DNA of 64,000 nt, taken from NCBI RefSeq assembly GCF_017352195.1, contig NZ_CP071445.1, forward strand, positions 186,001-250,000, read 5' to 3'. Shown here in pieces: positions 8,206-51,762 of this stretch. A model generated the notes under the pieces. It saw nothing but the letters and a program-made list of their open reading frames with translations. It searched no databases and was not told the origin of the DNA. The DNA is from Sedimentibacter sp. zth1 (GTDB lineage: Bacteria > Bacillota > Clostridia > Tissierellales > Sedimentibacteraceae). Each line of letters begins with the position of its first letter. Position 1 is the first letter of the stretch. The translations under genes were made by a program, and so were the position numbers.

Positions 8206-11200
8206 TTGAAAATACAGATTAATAAAACTGTATCAATAGCATTGATACTAACAATGCTATTGTCAAGTTTGATTTATGCTTTTGGAGTAGAATATGCAAA
8301 TAAAGACACAGTGCCTTTTGGGTATCCTGTAGTAAATAAGGATAAGCTTAGATTTAATTTAACGTTATATAATGAAAAAGGTATAATATGCTATGGAACA
8401 TATTCTAATGTACCAGGTAATCAATTTAAAAAGGGTACAGTAAAAGATACAAATTTGATCAATGGAACAGTTACAAAGAACGAGGGATATTATGAACAAG
8501 GTGGTTTAAAAGGTGAATACCGCTATCATGGATATGATGTTAATGGAAACCTATATACGAATATAAATTTCCCTGTTGATGAGGCAATGACAATGTCTCC
8601 AACAAGATATAACTGGGTGTACAGGATTTGGGAGCCTGGGAATCCATACTATAATGCTAATAGATTACGTAAATCAGGAGAATGGTTTAAAAGGGCGACT
8701 GATACATATAAACCAGCTTATACTACGAAAGTAAGAGAGCAAATAAAGTCAATCGCACCATTTGGTATGGATGATAGCAGAAGTACCTCTACTAACAAAG
8801 ACATGTATAATTATGCCCATGTATTATCTTTATCAAATGAAAATACAGTTGGAGAGATAAGAATGGACCATGTTGCTAGTAACGGAAAGCTATGGTATGC
8901 CAATTTTTCAACTCCTAGAAAAGTTGTTCCAAAGAAAACCGATGAAGAATTAGTAAGCGTTATAGCTGAATTTGATGAAAGTACATTAAATATAGCTAAT
9001 TTCGATAGTTTAAAAGATGGTGATGATGTTACTCTTAATGTAAGAATGGATGCAGCATTAATAGATAATAAGTTGTACGATAAAGTAGACGAAGATGTGC
9101 TGTTTGATGATGATGCATTAAGACAAATAGTAAATAATAGAAAAGATATAAAAGGTTGGGTTTATACAATACATAATGATATAACAGGAAAAAGCGAATC
9201 CTTTGATGTGACAGATAAAAACCCTAAAACAGCATATATGTTTAACATAACTATACCTTATTCTAAACTTAAAAACAGGATAGATTTTGAAACCAAAGAG
9301 GTTACAATAAAACTTACAGGAACTGCTAAAGTAATTTTTGATACTGATGTACCGTTACAAGACGATGATGTAATAGATGAAAAACTACGTTTTACTGGTA
9401 AGGATGAAGTAGAGAAAATTATACCTGAAGAAATACCTGAAGTTGAAATTCCGTTATATATTGATATAGATGCTCCATATTATATGCTAGATACTGAAAA
9501 ATTTAAATTATATGATAATACGGATTTGGTGAATGGCGAGGAAAGAACTACTAAACTAAATGGAAGGCTATTGACGGGATATGAAGAACAACAGTTTTTA
9601 AATGGAGAGTGGTTGTTCCCACTAACAGGAAGAGATGAAATATATAACTATGAAATAACCTATATAAGTCCAAATGGGGTAACAAGTATATATAGTTCAT
9701 TTGTAAAAGTTTATACAACAAAGCCTAAAACTCAAGTATTTGTTACAGGTAAACAAAAGGAGAATAGACTACTAACTGCAATAAATGATACTAGGTCTGT
9801 AAATACAAGCTACCTATTAGCACGCTCTACAATTACTCCAATTAATTTTGATGTAATGGGAGAGGCTATATATATAGGAAGTAAAGATGATAATTCAATT
9901 GAATTTATTTCAAAATCATATGAAACAGACATTAATGTGAATTTACAGGTATTATGTACTGTTAATCCTAGATATATTGAGAGGGATGATATTCCTAATA
10001 GTTACCATATAAGTAATGATTACACATATTGGTTACAAGTAGTACCAGATTATGAGCCTGCTGTGCTATGTAACATATGGAACTTTGTATTAACAAGAAA
10101 CGAACAGCTTAGTATGACTTATGAGGCAGTATCTACAGATGGCGATAAAATAACAGTTGATACATATAAGTTGTATTACGATGAGGATAATGATGATATA
10201 GCAGAGAAATTAATTAAAAGTGGTAGTAGTAGTGAATTAGCCTCGTATACACCAACAAAATTAGGTACATATAAAATAGTATTTTATGTTGAAGAGACAT
10301 TTGGTGATGGAGAACAAACACTTGAACAATTTATAACTGAGGCAGATAAAAAAACTAAAACATTAGAAAGAAATTTCTATGTAGATAATCTTGCTCCAAG
10401 TACTGAAATATATGTTGATGTTCCATTTGATTATCCGGAGGTAGATTTAATTGTTTTAAATGACGAGAATATTGCTAGAGAATTAAATAATGATATTGTT
10501 TCAACCAGAGTTAATTTTATGAATAACCTAATAAGAAAAAGCTTAAATCCAAGTGTTCAGATTTGGGATTTACATACATATATCTATGAACAAGGAGCAA
10601 GTTCAAGTAAACACACAGGTGGAAGTTATCCGCCAAGTAATATCTCTTACTCTAGCAATGGTTATAGTGGAACTTTAAGTAGGTATCGTGTAGTTAATAA
10701 TGACTATCAAAAAGATATGGGTGAATATGTAACTAAAACAGAAACAAGAACAGAAACAGCTAGTCGTTCGCAATCTGGTAAAGTAATGTTGCCAAAAACA
10801 ACCGATGGTAATAGGACCCCAACGTCTATTAGTTATAATAGTGGTGGATTTGTAGGAACGCTTAGTAGAAGTGGAGGTATAGCAAATTATAGTTCTACAG
10901 CTATAATGGACAATGGAACGTATCTAGGATATTCATATTCTTTTACTCAATATTATAGTGGAACAGTGAGAAAAACTACTCAAGTATGGGTGTCAGATTG
11001 GCAATGGTTTGATGATTACACAGGTTATTATAGTGGTACTATATATAAACCAGTTAAACAACAATTTAAACCGACCTATAGAGATACAAGTAATAAATAT
11101 TTAATTTATTTTGCTAATGACAGAGTTAATAATTTAACTGATTATCAGACAATAATGAATTTAGCAGATAGTAAAGTAATAGTAATAGGAAATAGTACAG

Positions 11201-13365
11201 TTCGAAATGATACTAGAATAAAAAAAGATTTATTTATTGATAGTACAAAAGATTTACAGACAATACAACAAGAAATAATTGAATATATAAGTAATGACAA
11301 TCCACAAGAAAGAGGTATCGTTGTATTAAAAGATGAAGTATTTAATGTCAGTTTTGCTGATGTAGACCTAGAAGGAGATGCGATTGTCCTTGATGGCTTT
11401 CAAGTAGTACATAACCAAAACTACTTTGATAATCCAATGGGACAAGAGGTTAATACGAGAATAGTATTTGATGAAAATGCATTTAATTTAAGTACATTGC
11501 CAAATAAGTTAACAAAGTCAGGTGAATACACATTTTACAGACGAGTTAAAGATAATCCAGCTGAAAAGCCGAGTGAAAGTGAGATATCAAATATAGCAGA
11601 AATTAAAATATATGTTCACAGAAAACCTATAGCAAAAGCAAAGCTTGATTGGACTTTCAATAATACAAATGGTACTTATAAAACTACATGGGTAGATAAA
11701 TCATATGATCCTGATATGCAATATAAAGATCCAGAGGGTACAAAAGGTATAAGGGAAAGAAAAATCAAATATCATGAAGTAGGAGCAACAGAATGGATTT
11801 ACGAAATACCAGACAATTTAAAACCTGCAAAATATGAGCTTGAATATATAGTTAAGGATAATTTTGGAGTATGGAGTGATCCGTTCATAATGAATTTTGA
11901 ATTACCGACAATACCTCCTGCACAATTAGAAGCTAAACTAAAAACAGAACTTTCACAGTTTAGTTTAAACGGAGTGCCGGCAAGTGAAAATCTAATAGCA
12001 TATGACATGCATACACGTTATCCATTTGATTTAAAACTTGAATTAACCTTGATGAAAGGCAGTAAAGAAATTGCACCAACAAAATCAGTAATTTATTCAA
12101 CAAGTACAGCTACAAAAACAAACCAAGACATAAATTGGAATGATATAAAATACAACATTCCTGCAACACTCAAAAGTGATGATTATTCAATGAGAATAAG
12201 AGCTGTTGATACTGCAGTACCAACAAGATACAAAGATATATTTTTCAATGTCAAAGTTAAAACACCAATAAATTTGCAACCAATGTTACAAGGTAAAACA
12301 AAAGATATAAAAATTACAGCAGATAAAAATTACTCAATAACAGCAACAACAACCAAGTATGTAAATAAATCATATACAAATTCAAACGTAAAAGTAACTA
12401 TGTTTAATGGAACACCATATGCAAAAACATATACTCTAAATGGTGTATATAATAATTGGAACTTGATTACTTCTACATCATCAGCAGCACCAGACGGAAA
12501 TTACACAGCAAAATATGTAGCTACACTTCCAAGTGGGGAACAGCAAACAAAATATATAACTTATCAATATATTCACAATACTCCACCAGTAATTGATGAT
12601 AGTGAAATAAAAGCAAATATCAATGATTCATACATATATGAAAATGATGATGTTTCGTTTTTACTTAAATTCCATGATGAAGACCTTACAAAATTAAATA
12701 TAAAGGTTGAATTGTATAAACAGTCTGACTTAGTGCATCCATTCAAAATTATCTTAAAAGATGTTAATCCCAACGGTACAAGCTATGATGATTACAATAT
12801 AAACTTAATAGATGACATACCTTTAGGAGACTATAGACTTGTTACAACAATAACTGATGATTATGGAGAAACTGCAGTTGCTACAAAAGATTTTACAGCA
12901 CATGATTTATGGATAGAAGGACATGTAAAACATGCACCAAAATGGGACGAAAACAGAAGCATATACAATGAAAAATATCCAGATAAATTTAGGGATGACA
13001 ATACATATTGGAATGGTGAAGCACTAATGACAAGTGCAGAGACAACAACAATCAATGAAAAAAGTTCAGTAGTATGTGAGCGTGTATCAGTAGAAATTAT
13101 AAATGATGATAGACCGATAGATAAAAAATACAAGCAATGGCTTGGTGCAGATAATATAACTAACGAAGAGTGGAACTTAAGCTATTGGGATGAAGAATGG
13201 GTAAATGATAACGGTTATGTAATAATAAAATGGGGAAGTGATAAAAAACAAGAATTAACATTAAGATTTACAGCATACTTCAATAATGACTGGGTTGAAG
13301 CAAGCGATGTAAAGATATATATTGACAATCGTGATGATTTTTGGCAACTTCATAGATCGTGGTAG
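8206..13365 (+). CDS. Giant secreted surface protein (1719 aa)
   Basis: Starts at TTG with AAAGAGGTG seven bases upstream. Residues 1-27 are a signal peptide with a strong hydrophobic core. No SLH, LPXTG or C-terminal membrane segment is visible, so retention at the surface may depend on the SLH protein encoded just upstream. The middle (about residues 800-970) holds two related segments with the pattern SISYNSGGFVGTLSR and YYSGTIYKPVKQQ, rich in Gly/Ser/Tyr/Thr. The C-terminal half looks like successive beta-sandwich or PKD/Ig-like modules (FNNTNGTYKTTWVDKSYDPD). Large secreted clostridial proteins share such features, but I cannot name a function. The following hairpin ends the unit. Confidence 0.8.
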   Translation: MKIQINKTVSIALILTMLLSSLIYAFGVEYANKDTVPFGYPVVNKDKLRFNLTLYNEKGIICYGTYSNVPGNQFKKGTVKDTNLINGTVTKNEGYYEQGGLKGEYRYHGYDVNGNLYTNINFPVDEAMTMSPTRYNWVYRIWEPGNPYYNANRLRKSGEWFKRATDTYKPAYTTKVREQIKSIAPFGMDDSRSTSTNKDMYNYAHVLSLSNENTVGEIRMDHVASNGKLWYANFSTPRKVVPKKTDEELVSVIAEFDESTLNIANFDSLKDGDDVTLNVRMDAALIDNKLYDKVDEDVLFDDDALRQIVNNRKDIKGWVYTIHNDITGKSESFDVTDKNPKTAYMFNITIPYSKLKNRIDFETKEVTIKLTGTAKVIFDTDVPLQDDDVIDEKLRFTGKDEVEKIIPEEIPEVEIPLYIDIDAPYYMLDTEKFKLYDNTDLVNGEERTTKLNGRLLTGYEEQQFLNGEWLFPLTGRDEIYNYEITYISPNGVTSIYSSFVKVYTTKPKTQVFVTGKQKENRLLTAINDTRSVNTSYLLARSTITPINFDVMGEAIYIGSKDDNSIEFISKSYETDINVNLQVLCTVNPRYIERDDIPNSYHISNDYTYWLQVVPDYEPAVLCNIWNFVLTRNEQLSMTYEAVSTDGDKITVDTYKLYYDEDNDDIAEKLIKSGSSSELASYTPTKLGTYKIVFYVEETFGDGEQTLEQFITEADKKTKTLERNFYVDNLAPSTEIYVDVPFDYPEVDLIVLNDENIARELNNDIVSTRVNFMNNLIRKSLNPSVQIWDLHTYIYEQGASSSKHTGGSYPPSNISYSSNGYSGTLSRYRVVNNDYQKDMGEYVTKTETRTETASRSQSGKVMLPKTTDGNRTPTSISYNSGGFVGTLSRSGGIANYSSTAIMDNGTYLGYSYSFTQYYSGTVRKTTQVWVSDWQWFDDYTGYYSGTIYKPVKQQFKPTYRDTSNKYLIYFANDRVNNLTDYQTIMNLADSKVIVIGNSTVRNDTRIKKDLFIDSTKDLQTIQQEIIEYISNDNPQERGIVVLKDEVFNVSFADVDLEGDAIVLDGFQVVHNQNYFDNPMGQEVNTRIVFDENAFNLSTLPNKLTKSGEYTFYRRVKDNPAEKPSESEISNIAEIKIYVHRKPIAKAKLDWTFNNTNGTYKTTWVDKSYDPDMQYKDPEGTKGIRERKIKYHEVGATEWIYEIPDNLKPAKYELEYIVKDNFGVWSDPFIMNFELPTIPPAQLEAKLKTELSQFSLNGVPASENLIAYDMHTRYPFDLKLELTLMKGSKEIAPTKSVIYSTSTATKTNQDINWNDIKYNIPATLKSDDYSMRIRAVDTAVPTRYKDIFFNVKVKTPINLQPMLQGKTKDIKITADKNYSITATTTKYVNKSYTNSNVKVTMFNGTPYAKTYTLNGVYNNWNLITSTSSAAPDGNYTAKYVATLPSGEQQTKYITYQYIHNTPPVIDDSEIKANINDSYIYENDDVSFLLKFHDEDLTKLNIKVELYKQSDLVHPFKIILKDVNPNGTSYDDYNINLIDDIPLGDYRLVTTITDDYGETAVATKDFTAHDLWIEGHVKHAPKWDENRSIYNEKYPDKFRDDNTYWNGEALMTSAETTTINEKSSVVCERVSVEIINDDRPIDKKYKQWLGADNITNEEWNLSYWDEEWVNDNGYVIIKWGSDKKQELTLRFTAYFNNDWVEASDVKIYIDNRDDFWQLHRSW

Positions 13366-23305: not shown

Positions 23306-24541
23306 ATGAAAAAAATAGTATGTATTATTATATTGATATTGTTAGGTGTAAATACTGTTGGTTGTGAGGATAGCAATGCTAAGACACTTGTCAAATATCC
23401 AGATAATACTAATATTGATTATGAAAGCGATGATGAATTTATTAAGTCAGCTAATGAATTTGCATGTAAAACTGCTTATGAGATACTTACTGATAATGTA
23501 AAAAATGAAAATATAAATTATTCTCCTATAAGTGTTTACTTTGCGTTGTCGCTTGCAGCTACGGGTGCCAACGACAGTTCAAAGGAGGAATTATTCGATT
23601 TATTGTGTATAAATGGTAAGGATAAAGATTATTTATCTGAGGAATGCTATAAATTGTTTAATAGTTTATATTTTGATAAAGGAAAGAGTAAATTAAAAAT
23701 TGCAAATTCATTGTGGTTAAAAAATGGAATTGAGTTTAAGGATGAATTTATTATTAATGCAGTTGAAAAATTTTATGCTTCTTTATTCAATATAGATTTT
23801 AGCAGTAAAAAAGAACTAAAGAAGATGACTGAATGGGTTAGTGATAACACAAATAACCTTTTGAATCCGACATTTGAGCCTGATAAAGACAAAATATTAA
23901 GTATTATAAATACTATATATTTTTACGATACTTGGTTAGAGGAATTTAAAAAACAAGATAACACTAATGAAATATTTTATTTACCTAGTGGAGAAGAAAA
24001 AAATTGTGTATTTATGAATAAAAGTTTTTCTGATCATAAATATTATATAGGTGAAAACTATATCAGTTCATCTTTAGATTTTGAAAATTGCGGAAGCATT
24101 AAGTTTATTTTACCTAATGAAAATGTAGAAATAGCTGATTTGTTAGAATCAAATGATATTCTTAACAATATAATGAATCGTGAATTTATCGATAAAGCAA
24201 CTGTGAATTTTAAATTACCTAAATTTCAGATAGAGAGTAAATTTGATATTAAAAAAACATTGCAGGATATGGGAGTAGAGAAGATATTTAATGAAGCTGA
24301 TTTTTCTGATATGACAGATAAAGATATATTTATATCTGATATCAATCAGGGAACATACATATCTCTTGATGAAAAAGGTGTAGAGGCAGCTGCATATACA
24401 GAGATAGGAATGAAATTAACATCCGTTGATGATATAAAAATTATACAAATGACTCTTAACAGACCGTTTATTTATGTTCTAACAGCAAAAAATGGTACAA
24501 TTCTATTTGTGGGTGTTTGCAGTGATCCTACTTTTCAATAA
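23306..24541 (+). CDS. Serpin 1 (lipoprotein protease inhibitor)
   Basis: Serpin-family protein of 411 residues. The signal peptide ends in a lipobox-like LGVNTVGC, so it is probably a surface lipoprotein. Serpin core marks include NYSPISVYFALSLAATGAN, LKIANSLWLKNG, NTIYFYDTW and the C-terminal NRPFIYVLTAKNGTILFVG. The reactive-loop hinge DEKGVEAAAYTE (residues 355-366) has Gly at P15 and small residues at P12-P10, compatible with loop insertion and inhibition. Target protease unknown. First of three serpin genes within 7 kb; it has its own RBS and terminator. Confidence 0.93.
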   Translation: MKKIVCIIILILLGVNTVGCEDSNAKTLVKYPDNTNIDYESDDEFIKSANEFACKTAYEILTDNVKNENINYSPISVYFALSLAATGANDSSKEELFDLLCINGKDKDYLSEECYKLFNSLYFDKGKSKLKIANSLWLKNGIEFKDEFIINAVEKFYASLFNIDFSSKKELKKMTEWVSDNTNNLLNPTFEPDKDKILSIINTIYFYDTWLEEFKKQDNTNEIFYLPSGEEKNCVFMNKSFSDHKYYIGENYISSSLDFENCGSIKFILPNENVEIADLLESNDILNNIMNREFIDKATVNFKLPKFQIESKFDIKKTLQDMGVEKIFNEADFSDMTDKDIFISDINQGTYISLDEKGVEAAAYTEIGMKLTSVDDIKIIQMTLNRPFIYVLTAKNGTILFVGVCSDPTFQ

Positions 24542-25440: not shown

Positions 25441-25529
25441 TTACTTTATTATTCGGACATTAAAATAGCCCTTTGCCTTGTCAGGACAAGAACTTATTCA
25501 ATTCTCACCTTAACTATTGACAAAGAGCC
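25441..25529 (-). repeat. ISL3-end-like element, copy 1 (full)
   Basis: Read on the minus strand it starts GGCTCTTTGTCAATAGTTAA and has CAAGGCAAAGGGCTATTTT about 55 bases further on; GGCTCTTTG and CAAAGGGC-type ends can pair. It begins 18 bases after the stop of the Tet-family gene, in the sense orientation. The first 36 bases match 46015-46050 at all but one position; the last ~40 resemble 50872-50914. Confidence 0.7.
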
Positions 25530-25547
25530 AATATTATTAATTCTAAT

Positions 25548-27732: not shown

Positions 27733-28989
27733 ATGAAAAAAATAATGTGTTCAATTTTATTATTTGCGCTACTATTCAATTTTACTGCTTGTTCTAGTCA
27801 GTTAAGTAATAATGATGTAAGTAAGGTGAATTATCCATCACAAGGCGAATTAGAAAGATATAAAAACAAAGAATTCATAGATTGTATAAATAGCTTTTCA
27901 AGTAAAACTGCATATGAAATTTTTAATGATGAAGAATTTAAGTCAAAAAATATAAATTATTCTCCAATAAGTGTATATTTTGCAATGTCTTTATTGTGTA
28001 CAGGTGCAAACAACCAAACTGAAAAAGAACTTTTAGATTTATTATGTTTAGAAGGAAAAGATAAAAATTACTTATCAGAAGAGTGTGCAAAGTTGTATAA
28101 AGGATTATATAGAGATAATGAAGAAGGTAAACTATTATTAGCAAATTCGTTATGGATGCAAAATAATATTGAATTTAAAAAAGAATATATAGAAAATTCA
28201 GAAAAATATTTTTACACTTCACTATATAACATTGATTTTGCTAATCAAAATGATGTAAATTTGATTAGCGAATGGATAAGTAATAATACCAATAATTTGT
28301 TAAAGCCTAAGTTTGAGTCTAACCCTGAAACTATTTTAGCTATTATTAATACAATATACTTTAATACGAGATGGAAATCTGAATTTAATAAAAAGAACAA
28401 TTATAATGATGTTTTCAATATAACAGATGATGAAACAACAGATTGTGAATTTATGCATCAAAATTTTAATACTCATAGCTATTTAAAGGGAGAAGGTTAT
28501 GTCAGTACTTGTTTATATCTTAATGAAGGAACTATGCATTTTATACTTCCAGATAAGAATGTTAAAGTTGATGATTTAATTAAGTCTGAAGATAAACTAA
28601 ATTCTATGATGACAGATATTTTGAATAAGGACGAAAGAATATTTGCACAAGTTAATTTTGACATACCAAAATTTAAAATTAAAAGTGACATATATCTAAA
28701 TGAAATTATAAAAAATTTAGGATGCGAATCTGTTTTTGTAAATTCAGATTTTTCTGATATGACAAATGGAATGGCATATGTATCTCTAATCAAACAGGGT
28801 AATTATTTAAGTGTAGATGAAGAAGGTGTAGAGGCAGCGGCTTATACAGCAGTGTGTGAAAATGGTTGTGCAATGCCTGCTGAAAATATATTTGATTTTA
28901 AGTTAGACAGACCATTTATTTATATTGTAACATCTGATAACGGAACAATATTATTTATGGGAATATGTAATAATCCATCTGTTGAATAA
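27733..28989 (+). CDS. Serpin 2 (lipoprotein protease inhibitor)
   Basis: 418-residue serpin with a lipobox (LFNFTACSS) after the signal peptide. Core marks are NYSPISVYFAMSLLCTGANN, LLLANSLWMQNN, NTIYFNTRWKSEF and DRPFIYIVTSDNGTILFMG. The hinge DEEGVEAAAYTAV (from residue 362) is inhibitor-like. Unusually the reactive loop holds two cysteines (AVCENGCAMP), which could form a disulfide or metal site. Closest relative in the window is serpin 1 (same motifs in register), indicating gene duplication. Own promoter region and terminator. Confidence 0.93.
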   Translation: MKKIMCSILLFALLFNFTACSSQLSNNDVSKVNYPSQGELERYKNKEFIDCINSFSSKTAYEIFNDEEFKSKNINYSPISVYFAMSLLCTGANNQTEKELLDLLCLEGKDKNYLSEECAKLYKGLYRDNEEGKLLLANSLWMQNNIEFKKEYIENSEKYFYTSLYNIDFANQNDVNLISEWISNNTNNLLKPKFESNPETILAIINTIYFNTRWKSEFNKKNNYNDVFNITDDETTDCEFMHQNFNTHSYLKGEGYVSTCLYLNEGTMHFILPDKNVKVDDLIKSEDKLNSMMTDILNKDERIFAQVNFDIPKFKIKSDIYLNEIIKNLGCESVFVNSDFSDMTNGMAYVSLIKQGNYLSVDEEGVEAAAYTAVCENGCAMPAENIFDFKLDRPFIYIVTSDNGTILFMGICNNPSVE

Positions 28990-29129: not shown

Positions 29130-29156
29130 GTGTATATAGAAGCTAGGAGGGGTAAA

Positions 29157-30437
29157 ATGTTTAGAAAAATAGTAACAATATTATTAGTTTTAACCATGAT
29201 TTTTTCTTTTTCTGGTTGTAAAAAGAATACTGGTACGTGCTTAATAAAAAAGGTTGAATATCCGCAATCAGTTGCATATGATGATAAAGATTTGAAAAAT
29301 CAGATATTAGAAGAAAATAAGATAGATGAAGATTTTAAAAAATCATTAAATAGTTTCACAGCATTAACATCATCAATACTACTTAGCAGTAATTCTAAAA
29401 ATGTAAGTTATTCACCTGTAAGTTTGTTTATGTCACTTTCACTTTTAAGTCAAGGAGCAAGTGTTGAGGTAAGAGATGAAATTTTAAATTCTATATTTTT
29501 AAGTCAAGAGAATAATGATTATATTTCTTCACAATGTTCTAAGCTCTACAGAACTTTATATACGGACAATAAAGTAGGAAAATTTCATATAGCTAATTCA
29601 TTATGGCTCAATAAGTCTTATACTTATGATTATTATTTCATAAAAAATGCATTTGAAAACTATTATACTTCATCATATAATATTAATTTTGATGATATTG
29701 ACCATCTTATAATTATGAGAGACTGGATAAAAGAAGCTTCTCATAATCTGCTAAGTAATACGGTCGCTAAAAAAAAGAGTCATATATTAACACAAATCAG
29801 TTCAATTTATGTTAAAGATGAATTTTTATATCAGTTTGATAAATCTAATACTGAAAAACATATATTTTATATGAATGATGGAGAAGAAATAGAACAAAAA
29901 TTCATGAGTATATCTTTGCCATCTAGCAGTTATACAATAGGTGAAAGCTATGTAAGTACAGAGTTGCCGTTAAAAAATTTAGGAAGTATGTTAATTGTTT
30001 TACCTAATGAGGGTATTAGCACAAAAACTTTAATGACTGGTGCAGAAAATGTTAAAAATATTTTCTATTCTTCACAGGAAAATGTTGGACAAGTTAATTT
30101 GAAAATGCCACATTTTTCAATACCAAGTAAACTTCAGTTAGAAGAACTGTTGAGTTATATTGGAATTGAAAAAATGTTCAATACAACAGGTGGACTTGAT
30201 GGTGTAAGTAATAGAGAAGCAAAAATGTCACTTGTAAGTCAGCATTCATGTGTTGAGGTAAATGAAAAGGGCATTAATACAAATTCAAAAACCAAATCTG
30301 ATAAGGAACCTGTAAATAATGATAATACTAATGAAAATACAATAAATATTAATGTAAACAGACCTTTTATATATGCTATAAAAGCGAGTGATGGAACAAT
30401 AATAAATATTGGTATTTGTAATTATCCTGGAGAGTAA
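29157..30437 (+). CDS. Serpin 3 (divergent serpin lipoprotein)
   Basis: 426 residues from the ATG after CTAGGAGGGG. Lipoprotein signal MFRKIVTILLVL...FSGC. The serpin fold is recognisable (VSYSPVSLFMSLSLLSQGAS, HIANSLWLNKSY, NRPFIYAIKASDGTIINIG), but the hinge reads NEKGINTNSKTKSDKEPVN (from residue 369): the alanine run needed for loop insertion is absent and the loop is long, polar and asparagine-rich. It is probably non-inhibitory or uses another mechanism. Terminator follows. Confidence 0.88.
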   Translation: MFRKIVTILLVLTMIFSFSGCKKNTGTCLIKKVEYPQSVAYDDKDLKNQILEENKIDEDFKKSLNSFTALTSSILLSSNSKNVSYSPVSLFMSLSLLSQGASVEVRDEILNSIFLSQENNDYISSQCSKLYRTLYTDNKVGKFHIANSLWLNKSYTYDYYFIKNAFENYYTSSYNINFDDIDHLIIMRDWIKEASHNLLSNTVAKKKSHILTQISSIYVKDEFLYQFDKSNTEKHIFYMNDGEEIEQKFMSISLPSSSYTIGESYVSTELPLKNLGSMLIVLPNEGISTKTLMTGAENVKNIFYSSQENVGQVNLKMPHFSIPSKLQLEELLSYIGIEKMFNTTGGLDGVSNREAKMSLVSQHSCVEVNEKGINTNSKTKSDKEPVNNDNTNENTININVNRPFIYAIKASDGTIINIGICNYPGE

Positions 30438-40697: not shown

Positions 40698-41999
40698 TTA
40701 TATTATAAGGTTTAACAGTAAACCTATAGAATTATAATTCATCATTCCAAATTGTCCATTGCTATTATAAATACCCATAAGTTTCAACTTATTGAAAAAG
40801 CTATCATTAGATGCAAGATCATAAGGGTCTGTAGCTTTATTAGAAAATAAGGTGCTATTGATTAAATTTATTGATGGTTCTTTCAATGATTTAGATACAT
40901 TTGTGTTAACAGTATTTGAAATACCAGAGGTGCTTCCAAAAATACTTTTAATTTCCTCAATATTTTTAGACACTGAAGTTTTTAACTTATTATTATCAAT
41001 AATAATGCAACCCATATTGTCCATTGATAATCCAATGCTTTTAAGTTCTTTACAAAAATGTTCGGATATTTTTATATTATTAAGCTGTTTTTTTATACCA
41101 GTTCCTTTATCAATATTTTTGCTTAGAAATTTAATAGTATTGTTATAAGAATTTACAAATTCGTTTATTGAATTGATTACTTTTTTATCATCTACACCAG
41201 TAATTATTTTTGTTTTACCTTCATTATTTAGTGTAGCAGTAACGTTATAGCTGTCTATATCAACATTATTTGTGCTAGAATGGTGTAGAGTAGCTGATTT
41301 GTTATCACTGTTTTTTATAACACTAAACTCTGCATTTTGAGATGCTTGACTTTTTTTTGATAAATTAGTTGTTTCCATAAACTGTTGTGAGCCAGTTATT
41401 TCAAATTTTTCATTTTCACCTGTTTTATCTGATGCTATTTTTAAACATATTTTATTATAAATGTTTACTATTGATGAAAATACTCCTATGTTAGATTTGT
41501 TGATTTTTGAATCTATTTCTTTGAATATTTGCTTATTCGTTTTATTACTTACATCAATTTTGAATGTTGTAGATTTATCCTTAAAAGAAATTGTTAGTTC
41601 AATATTGTCTTCAAAAGTAGTTTCATTACTATTTAAAAGATTTGAAGTGTTAATTTGTTGTTTTGCAATTTTATTTACACTTATATTGTATATGGATTTT
41701 TCATTTTGTTTAAAAAAGCTTTCACTTTTTACTATTTGTTCATTTAATGAAAAAGTACTATAATCATTCCATAAATTATTTAATGACTCACTATTAAGCT
41801 TGTTAGAAAACCCTTTTAGTTTATTTAATGTACTTGAATATGAGTTAATAAAACTTGCATTGCTTTTATTATAAAGGGTATAGGTATCATTAATATTGTA
41901 GTAATTTTTTGTTAAATTAAAGTAGTTTGTTTTATAACTATTTGTAGAATAGATTTTATTATAATTATTATTATTACTTTTATTAATACGTTCTACCAT
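40698..41999 (-). CDS. FliD-like protein (orphan)
   Basis: 433 residues with Asn/Ser/Lys-rich composition. The C-terminal two thirds follow the pattern of flagellar cap protein FliD: SFKDKSTTFKIDVSNKTNKQ, the KICLKIASDKTGENEKFEIT block, a SQNAEFSV repeat, KVINSINEFVNSYNNTIKFL, and a final KSIGLSMDNMGCIIIDNNKL then IKSIFGS. No secretion signal, and no flagellar gene is nearby. Start set at 41999 because GAGGAG lies eight bases before it; the GTG at 42008 overlaps that site. FliD family is moderately sure; function in a flagellum is not shown. Confidence 0.6.
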   Translation of the reverse strand: MVERINKSNNNNYNKIYSTNSYKTNYFNLTKNYYNINDTYTLYNKSNASFINSYSSTLNKLKGFSNKLNSESLNNLWNDYSTFSLNEQIVKSESFFKQNEKSIYNISVNKIAKQQINTSNLLNSNETTFEDNIELTISFKDKSTTFKIDVSNKTNKQIFKEIDSKINKSNIGVFSSIVNIYNKICLKIASDKTGENEKFEITGSQQFMETTNLSKKSQASQNAEFSVIKNSDNKSATLHHSSTNNVDIDSYNVTATLNNEGKTKIITGVDDKKVINSINEFVNSYNNTIKFLSKNIDKGTGIKKQLNNIKISEHFCKELKSIGLSMDNMGCIIIDNNKLKTSVSKNIEEIKSIFGSTSGISNTVNTNVSKSLKEPSINLINSTLFSNKATDPYDLASNDSFFNKLKLMGIYNSNGQFGMMNYNSIGLLLNLII

Positions 42000-42135
42000 T
42001 TTATTCACTCCTCAAAAATTATATCGGTATTTATACTATATAATTAAATAATTTGGAAAAAAATTATCATAATTTTTGAGATAATAGAATAATATACTAT
42101 ATACAATATACAAGTTATAGGGGGAAGAAATAAAA

Positions 42136-45954: not shown

Positions 45955-45977
45955 TAAAAATTTTTTGGTATGATAAA

Positions 45978-46013
45978 AAATAAAGCGTGTTATAATTGCA
46001 CACTTTATTTTTT
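45978..46013 (+). terminator. Terminator of the second Nudix gene
   Basis: AAATAAAGCGTG (45978-45989) / CACACTTTATTT (45999-46010), then TTT. Confidence 0.78.
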
Positions 46014-46014
46014 C

Positions 46015-46050
46015 GGCTCTTTGTCAATAGTTTAGGTGAGAATTGAATAA
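46015..46050 (+). repeat. ISL3-end-like element, copy 2 (left part only)
   Basis: GGCTCTTTGTCAATAGTTTA and the following 16 bases match copy 1 at 35 of 36 positions; the right half is absent. It starts one base after a terminator T-run. Confidence 0.72.
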
Positions 46051-46110
46051 ATAATTATTAGTAATTTAACTAAATTTTACAACATTTAGACTTGTAAATA
46101 AACTAAATGA

Positions 46111-46119
46111 TGGTATAAT
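46111..46119 (+). promoter_or_regulatory. Extended -10 promoter of the O-antigen-ligase-like gene
   Basis: TGGTATAAT preceded by TTGTAA about 16 bases upstream. The leader to the ATG is about 70 bases and ends in TTGGAGGAAAG. Confidence 0.55.
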
Positions 46120-46197: not shown

Positions 46198-47586
46198 ATG
46201 ATATTAAATGAAAAAAAAGATAAATGGTCAAATGTATTTGAAAAAATTACATCTATATATATTGTTCTAATGTTAACAATTTATTTACTCTATGTTGGTC
46301 ATGAGGGGTACCAAAATATAACTAAAGTAAAATTTAATATGTTTTGTATTATCTCTTGCATATATTTATTATTAATTATATTACTATATGTTGAACTTTT
46401 ATTTATTGGTCAAAAGAAGCTCTCTTCTTTATGGAGTAGTTTGAAAACTACGTCATGGACTCAAAAGCTGGTTTTAGTATTTTTTTTGTTTTCACTATTA
46501 TCTGCAATTTTTTCTGATAATCATAGCGTTGCTTTCAAAGGTGGATCTCGTTTTGAAGGCTTATTAACTATTGCAATATATTGTATATGTTTTTTTGCTA
46601 CATCAATATATGGTAAACCTGCTAAGTGGCAGATTTATATATTAGGTTTATCTATGACAATATTTTGTTGTATATCAATTATACAATTAATGGGCTATAA
46701 TCCATTTTCATTATATCCTAAAGGATATAATTATTTTGATGGCAATGTTAAATATGCTGGTTTTTACATAAGTACAGTAGGTAATATTGATTTAGCATCT
46801 GCATTATTGTGTTTGACTACACCAATATTTTTAATTGGTGTTATTAGAATGTCTGAAAAAAGAAAATTTTTTTTGTTAGTTCCTTTAATATTGTGCATAA
46901 TTGTCACTTTTGCTATAAAGGTTCAAGCAGGAATTTTGGGCGAAGTTGTTGGTTTAATACTAGTTATGCCCGTTGTATTACCAGTCAAAACTAAAATTAA
47001 AAAACTTTTATGTGTAGTTATACTTTTATTTATTATTTTAGGCATTTTTTTACTATGGAATTATGATTTTGAAGGAAATGAAACGCTGTTTGAGGCACAT
47101 GAGCTGTTACATGGAAATTGGGAAGATGAATATGGTACAGGAAGAATATATATTTGGAAAAATGTTATTAATCTTATACCAGAAAAATTATTTTTGGGTG
47201 GTGGACCTGATACTTTATTAGATAGAATGGCCACACACTTTCAAAGATATGATGAAAAGCTAGACCTTACGATTTATGCGTTAGTTGACGTAGCACATAA
47301 TGAGTATTTAAATATAATTGTTAACCAGGGTTTGTTTGCTCTAATATTTTACTTGTTAGCATTAGCTAGTTCAGCAATAAGATGGGTAAAAAACAGTACA
47401 AATATAGATGCTGCAATATGTGGTAGTGCAGTATTGTGTTATTGTATTCAAGCTTTTTTTGGAATTAGTATGTGCATAACCTCAATATTTTTCTGGTTAA
47501 CGTTGGGCCTACTAGAAAAATCTATAAATGTAACTAGAAAGGAATATAAAAATGAAAAAAGAAGTAAAAAAGCTAGTATCTATTAA
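46198..47586 (+). CDS. O-antigen ligase-like (Wzy_C) membrane protein
   Basis: 462-residue polytopic membrane protein with about 11-12 hydrophobic segments. The large extracytoplasmic loop near residues 285-370 holds FEAHELLHGNWEDEYGTGR, GGGPDTLLDRM and the diagnostic AHNEYLNIIVNQG, placing it with WaaL/Wzy/PglL-type enzymes (PF04932). These transfer or polymerise lipid-linked glycans. It overlaps the next gene, an SLH surface protein, by 35 bases; I infer that it may glycosylate that protein or build its wall anchor. Polymerase and protein-glycosyltransferase roles cannot be told apart here. Confidence 0.85.
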   Translation: MILNEKKDKWSNVFEKITSIYIVLMLTIYLLYVGHEGYQNITKVKFNMFCIISCIYLLLIILLYVELLFIGQKKLSSLWSSLKTTSWTQKLVLVFFLFSLLSAIFSDNHSVAFKGGSRFEGLLTIAIYCICFFATSIYGKPAKWQIYILGLSMTIFCCISIIQLMGYNPFSLYPKGYNYFDGNVKYAGFYISTVGNIDLASALLCLTTPIFLIGVIRMSEKRKFFLLVPLILCIIVTFAIKVQAGILGEVVGLILVMPVVLPVKTKIKKLLCVVILLFIILGIFLLWNYDFEGNETLFEAHELLHGNWEDEYGTGRIYIWKNVINLIPEKLFLGGGPDTLLDRMATHFQRYDEKLDLTIYALVDVAHNEYLNIIVNQGLFALIFYLLALASSAIRWVKNSTNIDAAICGSAVLCYCIQAFFGISMCITSIFFWLTLGLLEKSINVTRKEYKNEKRSKKASIY

Positions 47587-50500
47587 TTTAGTACTATGCA
47601 TGATGTTAGGAGCTGTATTTGCGCCTTTATTTACAATTAGTGTAGAAGCTACAGAGAATATTAACACTAGTGTATCTACATATAAAGATGTACTTATTGT
47701 AGATGGAAAGGAGTATGATGCTACAAAAAATCAAAGTGGTGATGGATGGGAGTATAATTATGATAATGATAGTTATGGATATTTAAGTTTAACTAATTAT
47801 AATGGTGGTGCAATATATTGTCCTTACAGCCTTAGTATTGATGTGAATGGCAATGTTGAAATAACGTCATCAAATTCAGCTGGAATTGAAAGTTCGAAGG
47901 ATGTTAGAATTTATAATGATAGTATAACCAAAAATCTTTATAGCGGTACATTTAAAATAAATGTAACTGGTGGTTTTCCTGCAATTAAAGCTGAAAATAT
48001 ACGTATATCAGGTCCTTTTGCAGCTACTTCAAAAGATTCAGCAGCTCTTATAGCTAATGATATCCAACTGAATAGATTTAGGCTATTCAAAATATTTGTT
48101 GGAAATACGGCTAGCGACTCTGTAGAGGGTGAATATACAAATCAATCATATATTTGTTGTGAACCAATAGAATTCAAATTGAATTTTATTGGAAATGGTG
48201 GAACAACATCTAATGGCGAAACTACAGTACCATATATTTTTAATGATTCTTATTCAGCATTAGTAGAATTAAATAACCATAGAAATTTATTTTCTAATAA
48301 TGATAAAATTCAGGTAGGTTGGTCTAAAGATCAAAATAATTATGATCAAATAATTTTATTAACAAATAATTATCAATTTGAAGATAAAGATTACGAAGAT
48401 GATTTGTATGCTGTATGGACTAACGATGACTTAAAAGCGGTTACATTATCAGGTTATATTGATAAATATCAAGGTGAGATAGATAAAGTTATTCCATATA
48501 GTACAAATGAAATTTGTTATCTACCAAATTCGCATAAGGCGGGATACAGATTCGAAGGTTGGCAGACAGAAGACGGAAAAAATATATATTTAGCTGATGA
48601 TACTATAGAAGTTTTAGACAATATTAAATTAAAAGCGATATATACGCCATTAATAGCAGTTATTGATGGTAAGGAATATGATGCTAGTAAAAATTATGAT
48701 AATAGAACATTAGGATGGAGTTATTATACTTCTAATGACGAAATTCATTTACATTTATATGACAACTATTCTGGTGGATTAATTTACATACCAGATAATG
48801 CAGAAATAAATTTTTTTGGAGTTACTAGTATTAGTGGTGTATCAAGTGAATCTGCAATATCGGCACAGGGATATATAAGTATTGATTCGTATAATAGCGT
48901 GGGGTGTACTATTACAGGAGGTACTAGTGCTTCAGCAATAAAAGCAGATGGTAAAATTACTATATCTGGTAGTTCAAAGACTGATCCAATTGTTATAATA
49001 GGTGGCGAAGGTAAGTCAGCATTAGAAAGTAAAAATAGTAATATATCTATTGACACTGATGTGTTTTGGGCAGGAAATGATAAAAACTCTGCTAGTTTAT
49101 TAGGTGAATATACTAATGAGCATTATGTGAAAATTGCTGAACCAAATTACTCAATATATTTAAACGGAAATGCTAAAATTCCATATTTATCACCTACATC
49201 AAGAGGCGGGGAATCATATTTTGTAGGATGGAGAGCTGGCTCAGTATATGGCGAAACAAGATGGTTTTTACCAGGCGAGTCAGTTGATTTTTCTGAAAGC
49301 ACAAAGCTAGATGCTCAATACTTTTCAAAAAATTTTGCTAAGACATTACGTTTAAATGGTAACGGTGGAATAACCGATAATGATTCTAAATGTTCAATAT
49401 TCTTGGCACTAGCATCAGCACCAGATTTAAATGTATATCTAGGTGATACAGGTTATACTAAATCTGGGTATACTCTTACTGGATGGAATACAGCTAAAGA
49501 TGAAAGTGGAATTTCATATACTGTAAATAGTTTTTTTAGATATTCGAATTTTATGCAAGACGAATACTTAGTGGATTTATTTGCACAATGGAAGAAAAAT
49601 GAAACTCCAAGTATAGATGACGGTAACGAAACACCTAGTGTAGAAAATGGTGGTTCTATTAGTTCACCACAAACAAAATCAGAAGTGAAATTGGAAATAA
49701 AAACAAATGCAGATGGAAATAAAATTTTAGAAATAATTGCAACAGTAGATATGGATAATGATGGAAAATCAAATGTAATTATTGATAAAAGCGTAGCTGA
49801 TAAAATAATAAAAGAAATTGAAAACAATAAAGTGGACCAAATCCTTTTAGTTCCAGAAATAAATAACAATGAACTTAATATAACTTTTACAATACCATCT
49901 GATGCAGCTAAAGTTATTGCAGAAAAAACAGGTGCTGACATTATCATAAAAACTGGTTTACTAGATGCTAAAATACCAAACACAGTATTGAATGATTCAA
50001 AGGAAGATATGTCAATATCAGTAATGAAAAATGATGACGGTAGTTATGTAATAGATAAGAGTTTTGATGATACATTAGATATTACTATATTTGATAAAGA
50101 AATAAATTCTAGTACAGTAGCAGTAATTTTAGGCTCCAATAGTACAGAGGAAATTATTAAAAAGTCTGTGACAAAAGATGGAAAAATTATCTTTATACTT
50201 TCGGATGATGCAAAAGTAGTTTTAAGAAATAATGAAAAAAAATATTCTGATGTTAATGAATCTAATCTTTATAAAACATCAATAGATTTTGTAGTTTCAA
50301 GAGAATTGTTTGGTGGAACAGGATTCGATAAATTTAGTCCTGATATATCGATGAATAGAGCTATGCTAGTAACTGTGCTACATAGATTAGAAAATATGCC
50401 TAAAGGCGGGGATTTGAAATTTGACGATGTGCCATTAAATGAATATTACAGTAATGCAGTAGCTTGGTCTACAAAAGAAGGTATAGTTAAAGGAAAAGGT

Positions 50501-50782
50501 AATGGTTTTGCTCCAAATGACGATGTAACAAGAGAGGAATTAGCAGTAATCTTATTTAATTATGCAAAAAGATATAAAATTGATACAATTCTAAATGTAG
50601 ATTTAAACGAATTTAAAGATAGTAACAATATCTCAACATGGGCAAATGAAGCAATGCAATGGTCTATACAGACTGGTTTAATAGGTGGAAAAGGAAATAA
50701 TATTTTAGATCCAAAAGGAAATGCTACAAGATTACAAGTTGCAATAATATTGCAAAGACTAATTGAAAAAGTAGTTCAATAG
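47552..50782 (+). CDS. SLH-anchored surface protein with duplicated CBM-like and InlB B-repeat domains
   Basis: 1076 residues. Signal peptide 1-34 (ending SVEA). Two related beta-helix-like domains (about 45-205 and 370-525) each begin with VDGKEYDATKN / IDGKEYDASKN and are rich in Gly/Ser/Ile. Between and after them are Listeria-Bacteroides/InlB B-type repeats (GYRFEGWQTEDGKNIYLADD; GYTLTGWNTAKDESGISYTV). A Lys/Asp/Ile-rich region follows. Three C-terminal SLH domains (from about 910: KFDDVPLNEYYSNAVAWSTK, VKGKGNGFAPNDDVTREEL, MQWSIQTGLIGGKGNN) anchor it to the wall. RBS GAAAGGAATA. Confidence 0.9.
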   Translation: MKKEVKKLVSINLVLCMMLGAVFAPLFTISVEATENINTSVSTYKDVLIVDGKEYDATKNQSGDGWEYNYDNDSYGYLSLTNYNGGAIYCPYSLSIDVNGNVEITSSNSAGIESSKDVRIYNDSITKNLYSGTFKINVTGGFPAIKAENIRISGPFAATSKDSAALIANDIQLNRFRLFKIFVGNTASDSVEGEYTNQSYICCEPIEFKLNFIGNGGTTSNGETTVPYIFNDSYSALVELNNHRNLFSNNDKIQVGWSKDQNNYDQIILLTNNYQFEDKDYEDDLYAVWTNDDLKAVTLSGYIDKYQGEIDKVIPYSTNEICYLPNSHKAGYRFEGWQTEDGKNIYLADDTIEVLDNIKLKAIYTPLIAVIDGKEYDASKNYDNRTLGWSYYTSNDEIHLHLYDNYSGGLIYIPDNAEINFFGVTSISGVSSESAISAQGYISIDSYNSVGCTITGGTSASAIKADGKITISGSSKTDPIVIIGGEGKSALESKNSNISIDTDVFWAGNDKNSASLLGEYTNEHYVKIAEPNYSIYLNGNAKIPYLSPTSRGGESYFVGWRAGSVYGETRWFLPGESVDFSESTKLDAQYFSKNFAKTLRLNGNGGITDNDSKCSIFLALASAPDLNVYLGDTGYTKSGYTLTGWNTAKDESGISYTVNSFFRYSNFMQDEYLVDLFAQWKKNETPSIDDGNETPSVENGGSISSPQTKSEVKLEIKTNADGNKILEIIATVDMDNDGKSNVIIDKSVADKIIKEIENNKVDQILLVPEINNNELNITFTIPSDAAKVIAEKTGADIIIKTGLLDAKIPNTVLNDSKEDMSISVMKNDDGSYVIDKSFDDTLDITIFDKEINSSTVAVILGSNSTEEIIKKSVTKDGKIIFILSDDAKVVLRNNEKKYSDVNESNLYKTSIDFVVSRELFGGTGFDKFSPDISMNRAMLVTVLHRLENMPKGGDLKFDDVPLNEYYSNAVAWSTKEGIVKGKGNGFAPNDDVTREELAVILFNYAKRYKIDTILNVDLNEFKDSNNISTWANEAMQWSIQTGLIGGKGNNILDPKGNATRLQVAIILQRLIEKVVQ

Positions 50783-50790
50783 AAGTATTT

Positions 50791-50827
50791 AAGCTCCTTA
50801 CTTTTAGTTAAGTAAGGAGCTTTTTTT
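50791..50827 (+). terminator. Terminator of the SLH surface-protein gene
   Basis: Perfect 13-bp stem AAGCTCCTTACTT (50791-50803) / AAGTAAGGAGCTT (50810-50822) and T-run. Confidence 0.9.
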
Positions 50828-50914
50828 GGCTCTTTGTAAATAGCTGGGGAGAGGATTTTAAAAATCCTTGATTTTACAAGGCAAAGAGCTATTTTGATGT
50901 TCAAATAATAAAGT
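50828..50914 (+). repeat. ISL3-end-like element, copy 3 (full, divergent)
   Basis: Starts GGCTCTTTGTAAATAGC directly after a terminator T-run and contains CAAGGCAAAGAGCTATTTTG (50878-50897). An inner hairpin GGATTTTAAAAATCC is present. The last ~40 bases follow the minus-strand copy at 25441-25480 closely. Confidence 0.7.
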
Positions 50915-51024
50915 GAAAATAGGGAAATTCAACAAATACAAATATTGACAATGATGGCATTTGAAATTATAATACTAAATATTGATAACTAATTAAAATA
51001 ATATATAATAAGGAGAATGTAGCA

Positions 51025-51762
51025 ATGGAAAATAATTCAATTAAGGTATCGAAAGCAGCGCTAATTCTATACATAATATTAGGTGCAATTGTGCTAGTTA
51101 CGGTTTCAAGTTTTTTAACAGGTTATATAATAAATAAAAATAATGAAAAGTTAATTGCAGATATAGCTGTATCTACGATGAAAGATTTTAATGTTATACC
51201 GGGAGAAAAAGGAGAAACAGGACAACAAGGAATTAAAGGAGAAAAGGGAGATATCGGAGATCAGGGTCCAAAAGGAGAATCTGGTTCACAAGGTCTACAA
51301 GGAGAAACAGGAGAAACAGGGCAACAAGGAATTAAAGGAGAAAAGGGAGATGTTGGAGAGCAGGGTCCAAAAGGAGAGACTGGTTCACAAGGTCCACAAG
51401 GAGAAAAAGGAGAGACGGGACAACAAGGAATTAAGGGAGAAAAGGGAGATGTTGGAGAGCAGGGTCCAAAAGGAGAGATTGGTTTACAAGGTTTACAAGG
51501 TCCACAAGGTGCACAAGGTGAAGGATATACAGTATTTGAAGCAAGTAAAGCTAGTAGCTATGAAATAGGCTCGATTGTTTTTTTTGATAACATGGTATAT
51601 ATTGTAAAAAGCAAACCGTTGGATGGTTCAATGGAACCAGATAAAGATACTTATCATTATGTTAGTATATATGGTATGATAATGGATGTAAAAAAATTAG
51701 CATTTGAAGCAAAAGAAGAAGCATCTCGTGCTAACGATCGTATAGACAACATATGTGAATAA
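51025..51762 (+). CDS. Collagen-like repeat membrane protein
   Basis: 245 residues. A single N-terminal membrane segment (about 13-35: [19 protein letters not shown]) is followed by 36 uninterrupted Gly-X-Y triplets (about residues 59-166), then a C-terminal ~75-residue head ([20 protein letters not shown]) and a short coiled-coil tail ([18 protein letters not shown]). The triplets consist of three near-identical 33-residue repeats (99 bp each) beginning [17 protein letters not shown] or similar, plus three triplets. It should form a surface triple helix. RBS AAGGAG. Confidence 0.93.
51206..51504 (+). repeat. Three ~99-bp tandem coding repeats
   Basis: The collagen region repeats GGACAACAAGGAATTAA and flanking sequence at 99-base intervals, with few differences among the last two copies. 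Copy-number variation would change the triple-helix length. Confidence 0.82.

Follow-up and report, generated by a model that had tools for sequence, protein, structure and literature searches.

In a 64,000-nucleotide stretch of the Sedimentibacter sp. zth1 genome (contig NZ_CP071445.1, positions 186,001 to 250,000; hereafter the window, whose own numbering is used throughout), the gene for a Wzy_C/WaaL-like integral membrane enzyme overlaps the gene for a secreted surface protein with S-layer homology (SLH) domains. We propose that the enzyme is a dedicated protein O-oligosaccharyltransferase and that the surface protein is its substrate, a reading that we put at a probability of roughly 0.55 from gene order and from analogy with described systems. 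The enzyme belongs to the WaaL-like family by sequence and by predicted fold, the two genes form a compact unit, and the pair recurs in unrelated neighbourhoods.

The overlapping gene pair and its products

Open reading frame (ORF) calling places two ORFs on the forward strand, both beginning with ATG: the enzyme gene at 46198-47586 (462 residues) and the SLH gene at 47552-50782 (1076 residues). They share 35 nucleotides in different frames (47552-47586), and this overlap is just as described in an earlier reading of the letters alone, to which we refer as the sequence-only reading. Shine-Dalgarno-like purine runs can be read for both genes, GGAGG directly 5' of 46198 and GAAAGGA at 47537-47543, the latter lying within the enzyme gene and serving the SLH gene. 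To judge from this arrangement, the overlapping genes are apparently translationally coupled.

Upstream, a terminator-like hairpin with a T-rich 3' arm (45975-46013, forward strand) separates a NUDIX gene from the pair; it folds at -12.9 kcal/mol (z -4.17, with equal stability in 0 of 200 shuffles) and was not picked up by a terminator scan. A promoter-like site for the pair (46092-46119, forward strand) reads TTGTAA-16-TATAAT, its -10 element being preceded by TG; it agrees with the consensus at 10 of 12 positions, and we regard it as weak because the region contains 44 such sites against a shuffle mean of 41.3. Downstream, a stronger terminator-like hairpin with a 13-pair stem and a T run (50791-50822, forward strand; -20.3 kcal/mol, z -4.80) lies 8 nucleotides 3' of the SLH stop codon. 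The next gene (51025-51762) encodes a collagen-like protein (PF01391) that, by eye, is anchored in the membrane at its N-terminus, and it is preceded by a separate, perfect promoter-like site at 50945-50973. Because hairpins stand on both sides of the pair and the downstream gene has a promoter-like site of its own, the pair looks like one bicistron, and these sequence signals suggest that it would be transcribed as a two-gene operon. At gathering scores, no riboswitch or other RNA family was found in the window.

A dispersed intergenic repeat of about 85 nucleotides (GGCTCTTTGTCAATAG...CAAGGCAAAG.GCTATTTT) is present in the window as two full copies (50826-50910, forward strand; 25447-25531, reverse strand) and one partial copy (46014-46052). 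The partial copy and one full copy flank the enzyme/SLH pair, directly after the two hairpins. Elsewhere in this genome (L112) there are weak partial matches to the repeat, and its 16-nucleotide core is present only in 7 of 177 loci, all of this genome.

The enzyme is a Wzy_C/WaaL-like protein, in agreement with the sequence-only reading. PF04932 (Wzy_C) is the sole Pfam family above its cut-off (60.6 bits versus 31.7), and PF13425 gave no match at E 0.1. A PDB sequence search with the enzyme profile returned no match, and the fold was therefore predicted with AlphaFold from seven sequences (predicted local distance difference test score, pLDDT, 78.9; predicted template modelling score, pTM, 0.83). 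By far the best match of this predicted model is the WaaL ligase 7tpg_B (Foldseek 4e-5; Z 23.7 over 375 aligned residues at 4.9 Å), with 12% identity in the structural alignment; RodA and FtsW follow at Z 10-13. The catalytic pairs described in passages of PMC3643930 are R288/H338 in Escherichia coli WaaL and R298/H349 in PglL. The equivalent residues of the enzyme, R316 and H367, are invariant across the nine rows of our alignment of near relatives (A2), and their spacing of 51 compares with 50 in E. coli WaaL and 51 in PglL.

That the partner is a secreted SLH surface protein also stood up. It matches PF00395 at 83 bits (cut-off 20.8), and its C-terminal SLH region (residues 893-1067; 50228-50752) matches the SLH structures 6bt4 and 3pyw of the Sap S-layer protein (8.7e-14 and 2.2e-13). 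The N-terminus, approximately residues 1-34 (47552-47653), contains VSINLVL and is signal-peptide-like by inspection and by a crude scan. Two DGKEYDA...GW.Y modules, with approximate limits set by eye, occupy about residues 46-180 (47687-48091) and 366-520 (48647-49111), and the same module is found in the partner of a related enzyme (L097). The best stretch of a Listeria-Bacteroides (InlB B-type) repeat, residues 320-362 (48509-48637), matches PF09479 at 26.2 bits, just below the cut-off of 27. The repeats had been called CBM-like, a description that we abandon: no CBM family was found in Pfam at E 0.1, and the repeats resemble the Listeria-Bacteroides type. Folded alone, the whole protein gave an unusable model (pLDDT 37.7). 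Serine and threonine make up 15.9% of its residues with no striking Ser/Thr-rich tract, and we therefore propose no glycosylation site.

Recurrence of the pair and distribution of the enzyme

With the enzyme itself as query, 31 of 100 related genomes gave matches, the best besides the window's own scoring 93 bits, and many of these covered the last third of frames about 600 residues long. A pattern scan of GTDB genomes yielded eight loci (L065-L072). Profiles were searched against 391 genomes of the class, 249 of the order and 398 of the phylum, along with further sets of 35, 16 and 6 genomes. In the class, a seven-row profile (A1) added two strong members, in genomes G266 (544 bits) and G496 (399 bits), both of them paired.

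The pair is found at six loci in all: the window, L066, L067, L069, L097 and L098. An SLH protein lies directly downstream of the enzyme at L066, after a gap of 46 nucleotides, and at L067, where the enzyme gene overlaps the gene of the secreted surface protein by 25 nucleotides; the L067 bin is labelled Mailhella, is probably mis-binned, and has its partner split into two ORFs (134 and 922 residues), used here as two pieces. In G266 (L097) the enzyme gene overlaps by 8 nucleotides that of a 1702-residue protein with leucine-rich repeats (LRR) and SLH domains, and in G496 (L098) it overlaps by 17 nucleotides that of a 1200-residue InlB-repeat protein with a CUB domain and no SLH domain. L069 has an adjoining Big_3/fn3/Cu_amine_oxidN1 protein, likewise without SLH, which has no clear start codon and whose secretion is suggested by its domains and hydrophobic start. 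Because the L098 and L069 partners have no SLH domain, the common feature of the partners is a surface-type protein rather than SLH, and SLH anchoring is weakened as the reason for the pairing. In Butyricicoccus (L072), broken frames downstream of an enzyme remnant contain LRR-like and InlB-like remnants (by eye), apparently a decayed pair.

The pair is conserved side by side in neighbourhoods that are otherwise unrelated. Across the six loci, the flanking genes show no mutual matches at E 1e-5 except for ABC ATPases common to the window and L069 (few flanking ORFs were available for L067), whereas the enzymes and the partners do match across loci. Outside the SLH region, the window partner aligns with that of L097 over 842 residues (29% identity, 1.8e-73), with that of L098 over 140 residues (2.4e-10) and, weakly, with that of L067 (9e-5). 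The L066 partner matches that of the window over an SLH-sized 177 residues only, and no match of the L069 partner to the others was listed.

The specific part of the partner tracks the enzyme. Among the best two candidates scored per class genome, the non-SLH part of the window partner was found at E 1e-8 in 3 of 391 genomes (the window's own genome, G000, with G266 and G496), which are the same three class genomes that have an enzyme of at least 399 bits. The match covers 828 residues in G266 and the 140-residue repeat only in G496, though the genes adjoin there. In the order, where the best three candidates per genome were scored, 2 of 249 genomes gave a match: the source genome of the window, and G060. 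As to the refuting condition named in the sequence-only reading, homologous SLH proteins that regularly lack the enzyme, the order yielded just one case: G060, where the weak match spans a 122-residue generic repeat (3.7e-7) and no enzyme match passes 1e-20. SLH-only relatives of the partner are common without the enzyme, and SLH genes are numerous in these genomes. As controls, 40 further SLH genes were examined, 2 of them from this genome and 38 from others, and a Wzy_C gene was present in none of the stretches covered. These genes were drawn from the upper rows of an SLH search rather than at random, and two of them, L141 and L156, have less than 1 kb of upstream sequence.

A multidomain surface-type protein follows the enzyme in 6 of 9 near relatives and in 0 of 21 others (Fisher p 1.4e-4), in a comparison that uses related sequences, defines the group of nine by a profile (A2) built from those nine, and tests systematically the downstream side of the enzymes. 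The count without the window is 5 of 8 (p 4.7e-4). Dropping L133 gives p 1.8e-4, counting L109 as paired as well gives 0.0011, and counting L070 as paired too gives 0.00017. In a tree that leaves out L071 and the L072 remnant, the window and seven others form a supported clade (98/96), five of the eight being paired. L071 is remote, and its sequence ends soon after the enzyme.

The loci counted as unpaired have other neighbours. L070 has, 64 nucleotides downstream, a clostripain-family protein of 812 residues with one hydrophobic segment, a doubtful case; L068 has an X-Pro peptidase-type neighbour; and L065 has a NUDIX gene after a hairpin, within the 868 nucleotides covered downstream. At L109 the enzyme gene overlaps by 11 nucleotides that of a 995-residue protein with Acyl_transf_3, PGA_cap and GDSL matches, which is also doubtful. 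The class search gave sixteen further rows in twelve further genomes (G449, G486 and G285 being repeated) at 76-223 bits; those inspected (L099-L106) have other neighbours, and L099-L103 sit in exopolysaccharide-type clusters, named by eye. The enzyme was present in 1 of 6 genomes from the order of G266 and in 1 of 16 from that of G496, and since near kin of both are without it, its distribution is patchy. In the window's own order, 244 of 249 genomes have no enzyme match at E 1e-20, and the four positives besides the window reach only 101-127 bits. The phylum search added three more enzymes, and in the order of G758 the enzyme was found in 8 of 35 genomes, two of them the same. The suggestion that such a pair is rare is right for this enzyme subfamily in the genomes sampled.

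A second recurrent neighbour emerged from these searches. In three genomes, a DUF218 (PF02698) membrane protein gene lies directly before a remoter enzyme (L121, 9760-10467; L132, 9506-10291; L133, 6357-7199).

Glycan genes and other features of the window

Of the 51 window ORFs, 49 were scanned against Pfam at E 0.1, 0.001 or 0.0001 depending on the ORF batch, all but two ORFs of 75-76 residues; apart from the enzyme, no glycosyltransferase, flippase or sugar-nucleotide genes were found. NeuB is a secondary match (29.2 bits) of a DAHP synthase at 16747, behind its main one. The absence of other polysaccharide genes asserted in the sequence-only reading is thus true of the window, and the genome has glycan genes elsewhere. 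One PF02397 initiating sugar-phosphate transferase, at 2375801, lies among glycan-type genes at approximately 2.37-2.40 Mb, which were named by eye except for a Wzy_C protein identified there by Pfam; the genome has two further Wzy_C genes besides that of the pair (L111 and L112). Any lipid-linked glycan donor would have to come from such genes elsewhere in the genome.

Three serpin genes lie close together at 23306-24541, 27733-28989 and 29130-30437 (PF00079, 186-250 bits), with lipoprotein-like starts by eye; to our knowledge, serpins are uncommon in Gram-positive anaerobes. Another SLH protein is encoded at 6927-8192 and is followed 13 nucleotides later by a secreted-looking protein of 1719 residues (8206-13365) with no Pfam match at 0.001. 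A FliD_C-like protein rich in Asn, Ser and Lys (40698-42008, reverse strand) scores 31 bits against a cut-off of 25.4, and no other flagellar families were seen in the Pfam scans of the 49 ORFs. An ORF with a weak integrase-core (rve) match (4515-5534, reverse strand; 20.5 bits, cut-off 32.6) looks like an insertion-sequence transposase, and after it an intergenic stretch of about 230 nucleotides is repeated about 380 nucleotides on (about 5948 and 6331, by eye).

Candidate function of the pair

Members of the WaaL/PglL family move glycans from a polyprenyl carrier outside the membrane. We propose that the Wzy_C protein would be a cytoplasmic membrane protein whose active site faces outward, where it would take a lipid-linked glycan and transfer it to hydroxyl side chains of the partner as the partner emerges from the secretion channel. 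The surface protein would then be held on the wall by its SLH domains, and, with their genes overlapping, enzyme and substrate would be produced jointly at one membrane site. That the glycan is lipid-linked, that the partner, not some other acceptor, receives it, and that the bond is an O-linkage are the steps that we infer. Because the partner should cross the same extracytoplasmic space as the active site of the enzyme, and because there are precedents among linked genes and S-layer proteins, a dedicated O-oligosaccharyltransferase is the best reading of the pair.

As the main alternative, the enzyme could be a polymerase or ligase of a wall or surface polysaccharide, Wzy-like or WpaA/WpaB-like, with the surface protein left unglycosylated and co-expressed because SLH domains bind the secondary cell wall polymer or because both products contribute to a single surface structure. 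Polymerases as well as ligases are found in the Wzy_C family, the RodA and FtsW proteins that come next in the fold search polymerise glycans, and the sub-threshold NCBIfam match described below is to a polymerase. Remoter relatives in exopolysaccharide-type clusters or beside DUF218 would also fit, as would WpaA and WpaB of Bacillus anthracis, which are thought, with activity evidence lacking, to assemble the secondary polymer and whose depletion affects the S-layer according to PMC6030368. We nevertheless judge a polysaccharide role unlikely. It is weakened because partners without SLH exist and because many SLH proteins do without the enzyme: none of the 40 other SLH genes, including two of this genome, stands beside a Wzy_C gene, though they presumably need the same wall ligand. 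Glycan-synthesis genes are absent from the 49 window ORFs scanned, and the same paper places WpaA and WpaB in PF13425, a family that the enzyme does not match.

We think it improbable that the enzyme acts on many acceptors, as a general ligase or general O-oligosaccharyltransferase would, the surface protein being one among them and the adjacency no more than a loose tendency in operons of surface genes. According to PMC12645811, general enzymes of the PglL type are not bound to any single substrate gene, and three of the nine near relatives, along with remoter ones, are without a clear surface partner; the enzyme is, however, missing from nearly all genomes of its order. In the 391 class genomes the specific part of the partner is found with the enzyme and never alone. 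Chance adjacency without functional meaning, the overlap arising from compact local gene order, is very improbable. Gene overlaps are common in bacteria and SLH genes abound in these genomes, but both genes of the pair are related across unrelated neighbourhoods, 6 of 9 compares with 0 of 21 and still gives p 0.0011 when L109 is taken as paired and L133 is dropped, and the control SLH genes are without a Wzy_C neighbour.

Several observations weigh against a dedicated O-oligosaccharyltransferase. The sole NCBIfam match of the enzyme, at 16.4 bits against a cut-off of 40, is sub-threshold and points to an oligosaccharide repeat unit polymerase, and neither PglL_A (PF15864) nor Wzy_C_2 was detected in Pfam at E 0.1. 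The model has low confidence over much of residues 312-366, around the catalytic residues. The column of WaaL R215 holds Gln (Q243) in the enzyme, and Arg occupies it in 0 of 9 near relatives. This Arg is also missing in 15 remoter rows (L105, L121-L123, L131-L136 and L099-L103) and is kept in L104, L106-L110, L111 and L112, the last two being the further Wzy_C proteins of the window's own genome. All near relatives but L069 (8 of 9) have a Lys or Arg at a variable position, two or four residues before the column. As to pairing, 3 of the 9 near enzymes are unpaired as counted, and L065, L068 and L070 share the supported clade yet are counted as having no surface partner. No large secreted partner was seen adjoining the enzyme in nine loci from the phylum and the G758 order, among which L133, ending 163 nucleotides after the enzyme stop, is too short to judge and L123 and L135 were covered by one of the two neighbourhood analyses; the judgeable remoter enzymes are thus without a clear partner, L109 being doubtful. 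Because such relatives and L065, L068 and L070 lack one, the enzyme can exist without a partner. Leaving out both the window and L069 reduces the count to 4 of 7 versus 1 of 20 (p 0.0089). The sequence-only reading, in calling this a dedicated pair, is therefore supported in so far as the pair recurs and the specific part of the partner tracks the enzyme, and is qualified in that the enzyme also occurs without a clear partner.

The precedents for a dedicated O-oligosaccharyltransferase are compared here by description, from passages of the papers cited. Among the closest known systems are WsaB of Geobacillus stearothermophilus and WsfB of Paenibacillus alvei, predicted S-layer protein O-oligosaccharyltransferases (PMC2943079), which are Gram-positive, have a Wzy_C domain and have a secreted S-layer protein as proposed acceptor; the window partner, too, is an SLH protein. 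Their genes lie in slg loci with glycan-synthesis genes, whereas the window has a two-gene unit with none nearby; WsfB has a C-terminal TPR, whereas the window enzyme matches no TPR family; and the window partner is a multidomain repeat protein. Also close are the single-substrate enzymes TfpO/PilO, TfpM and PglS, whose genes are closely linked to those of their substrates (PMC12645811); 21 of 31 PglL homologues likewise lie by pilin genes (PMC3643930). TfpO and TfpM are Wzy_C-type without PglL_A and Wzy_C_2, as is the window enzyme (PMC12645811), and a linked gene for a secreted protein, from a 35-nucleotide overlap to a 46-nucleotide gap, accompanies the enzyme in the window, L066, L067, L097 and L098 and adjoins it in L069; in each of these loci the partner would be the substrate. 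The TfpO, TfpM and PglS systems are Gram-negative, with type IV pilin-like substrates or ComP (PMC12645811), whereas the partners here are SLH, InlB-repeat, LRR, CUB or Big/fn3 proteins and one catalytic Arg is missing.

WaaL shares with the enzyme its predicted fold and the equivalents of R288 and H338, and differs in its R215, in the low structural-alignment identity and in its lipopolysaccharide context. WpaA and WpaB belong to the same broad clan and, by way of the wall polymer, have a link to S-layer display (PMC6030368), whereas their family is PF13425 and that of the window enzyme PF04932. By published domains, the enzyme is neither PglL nor PglS; it probably works like the TfpO, TfpM and WsfB enzymes, and we make no claim that it belongs to their group. 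In the open-licence PMC literature we found no paper that pairs an SLH or Listeria-Bacteroides repeat protein with an O-antigen ligase, and the matched passages of a review of LCP enzymes (PMC7831098) describe no pair of O-antigen ligase and SLH protein.

We tentatively suggest, as a possibility of lower standing than the dedicated role itself, that these loci represent an undescribed class of single-substrate protein O-oligosaccharyltransferase in Clostridia, a two-gene module that carries its own surface substrate, has no first WaaL/PglL catalytic Arg, and may recognise its substrate during secretion. An Asn within the core of the signal peptide, in the motif [SA][LI]N[LI] and 5-6 positions beyond the last basic residue, is present in 4 of 6 partners (window, L067, L097 and L098). 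By eye, a similar case occurs in one (L176) of the 40 SLH proteins used as controls, of which about ten have doubtful or unreadable N-termini. Because the four partners are related, this motif may only reflect descent.

Wzy_C-type protein glycosylation enzymes are widespread across Gram-negative species, according to passages of PMC12645811. If our proposal is true, a compact enzyme-substrate pair of Clostridia would offer a clean system for understanding how such an enzyme selects one protein. It should also make glycoproteins of uncultured gut and rumen Clostridia predictable from gene order, and it may provide a Gram-positive enzyme for attaching glycans to chosen proteins.

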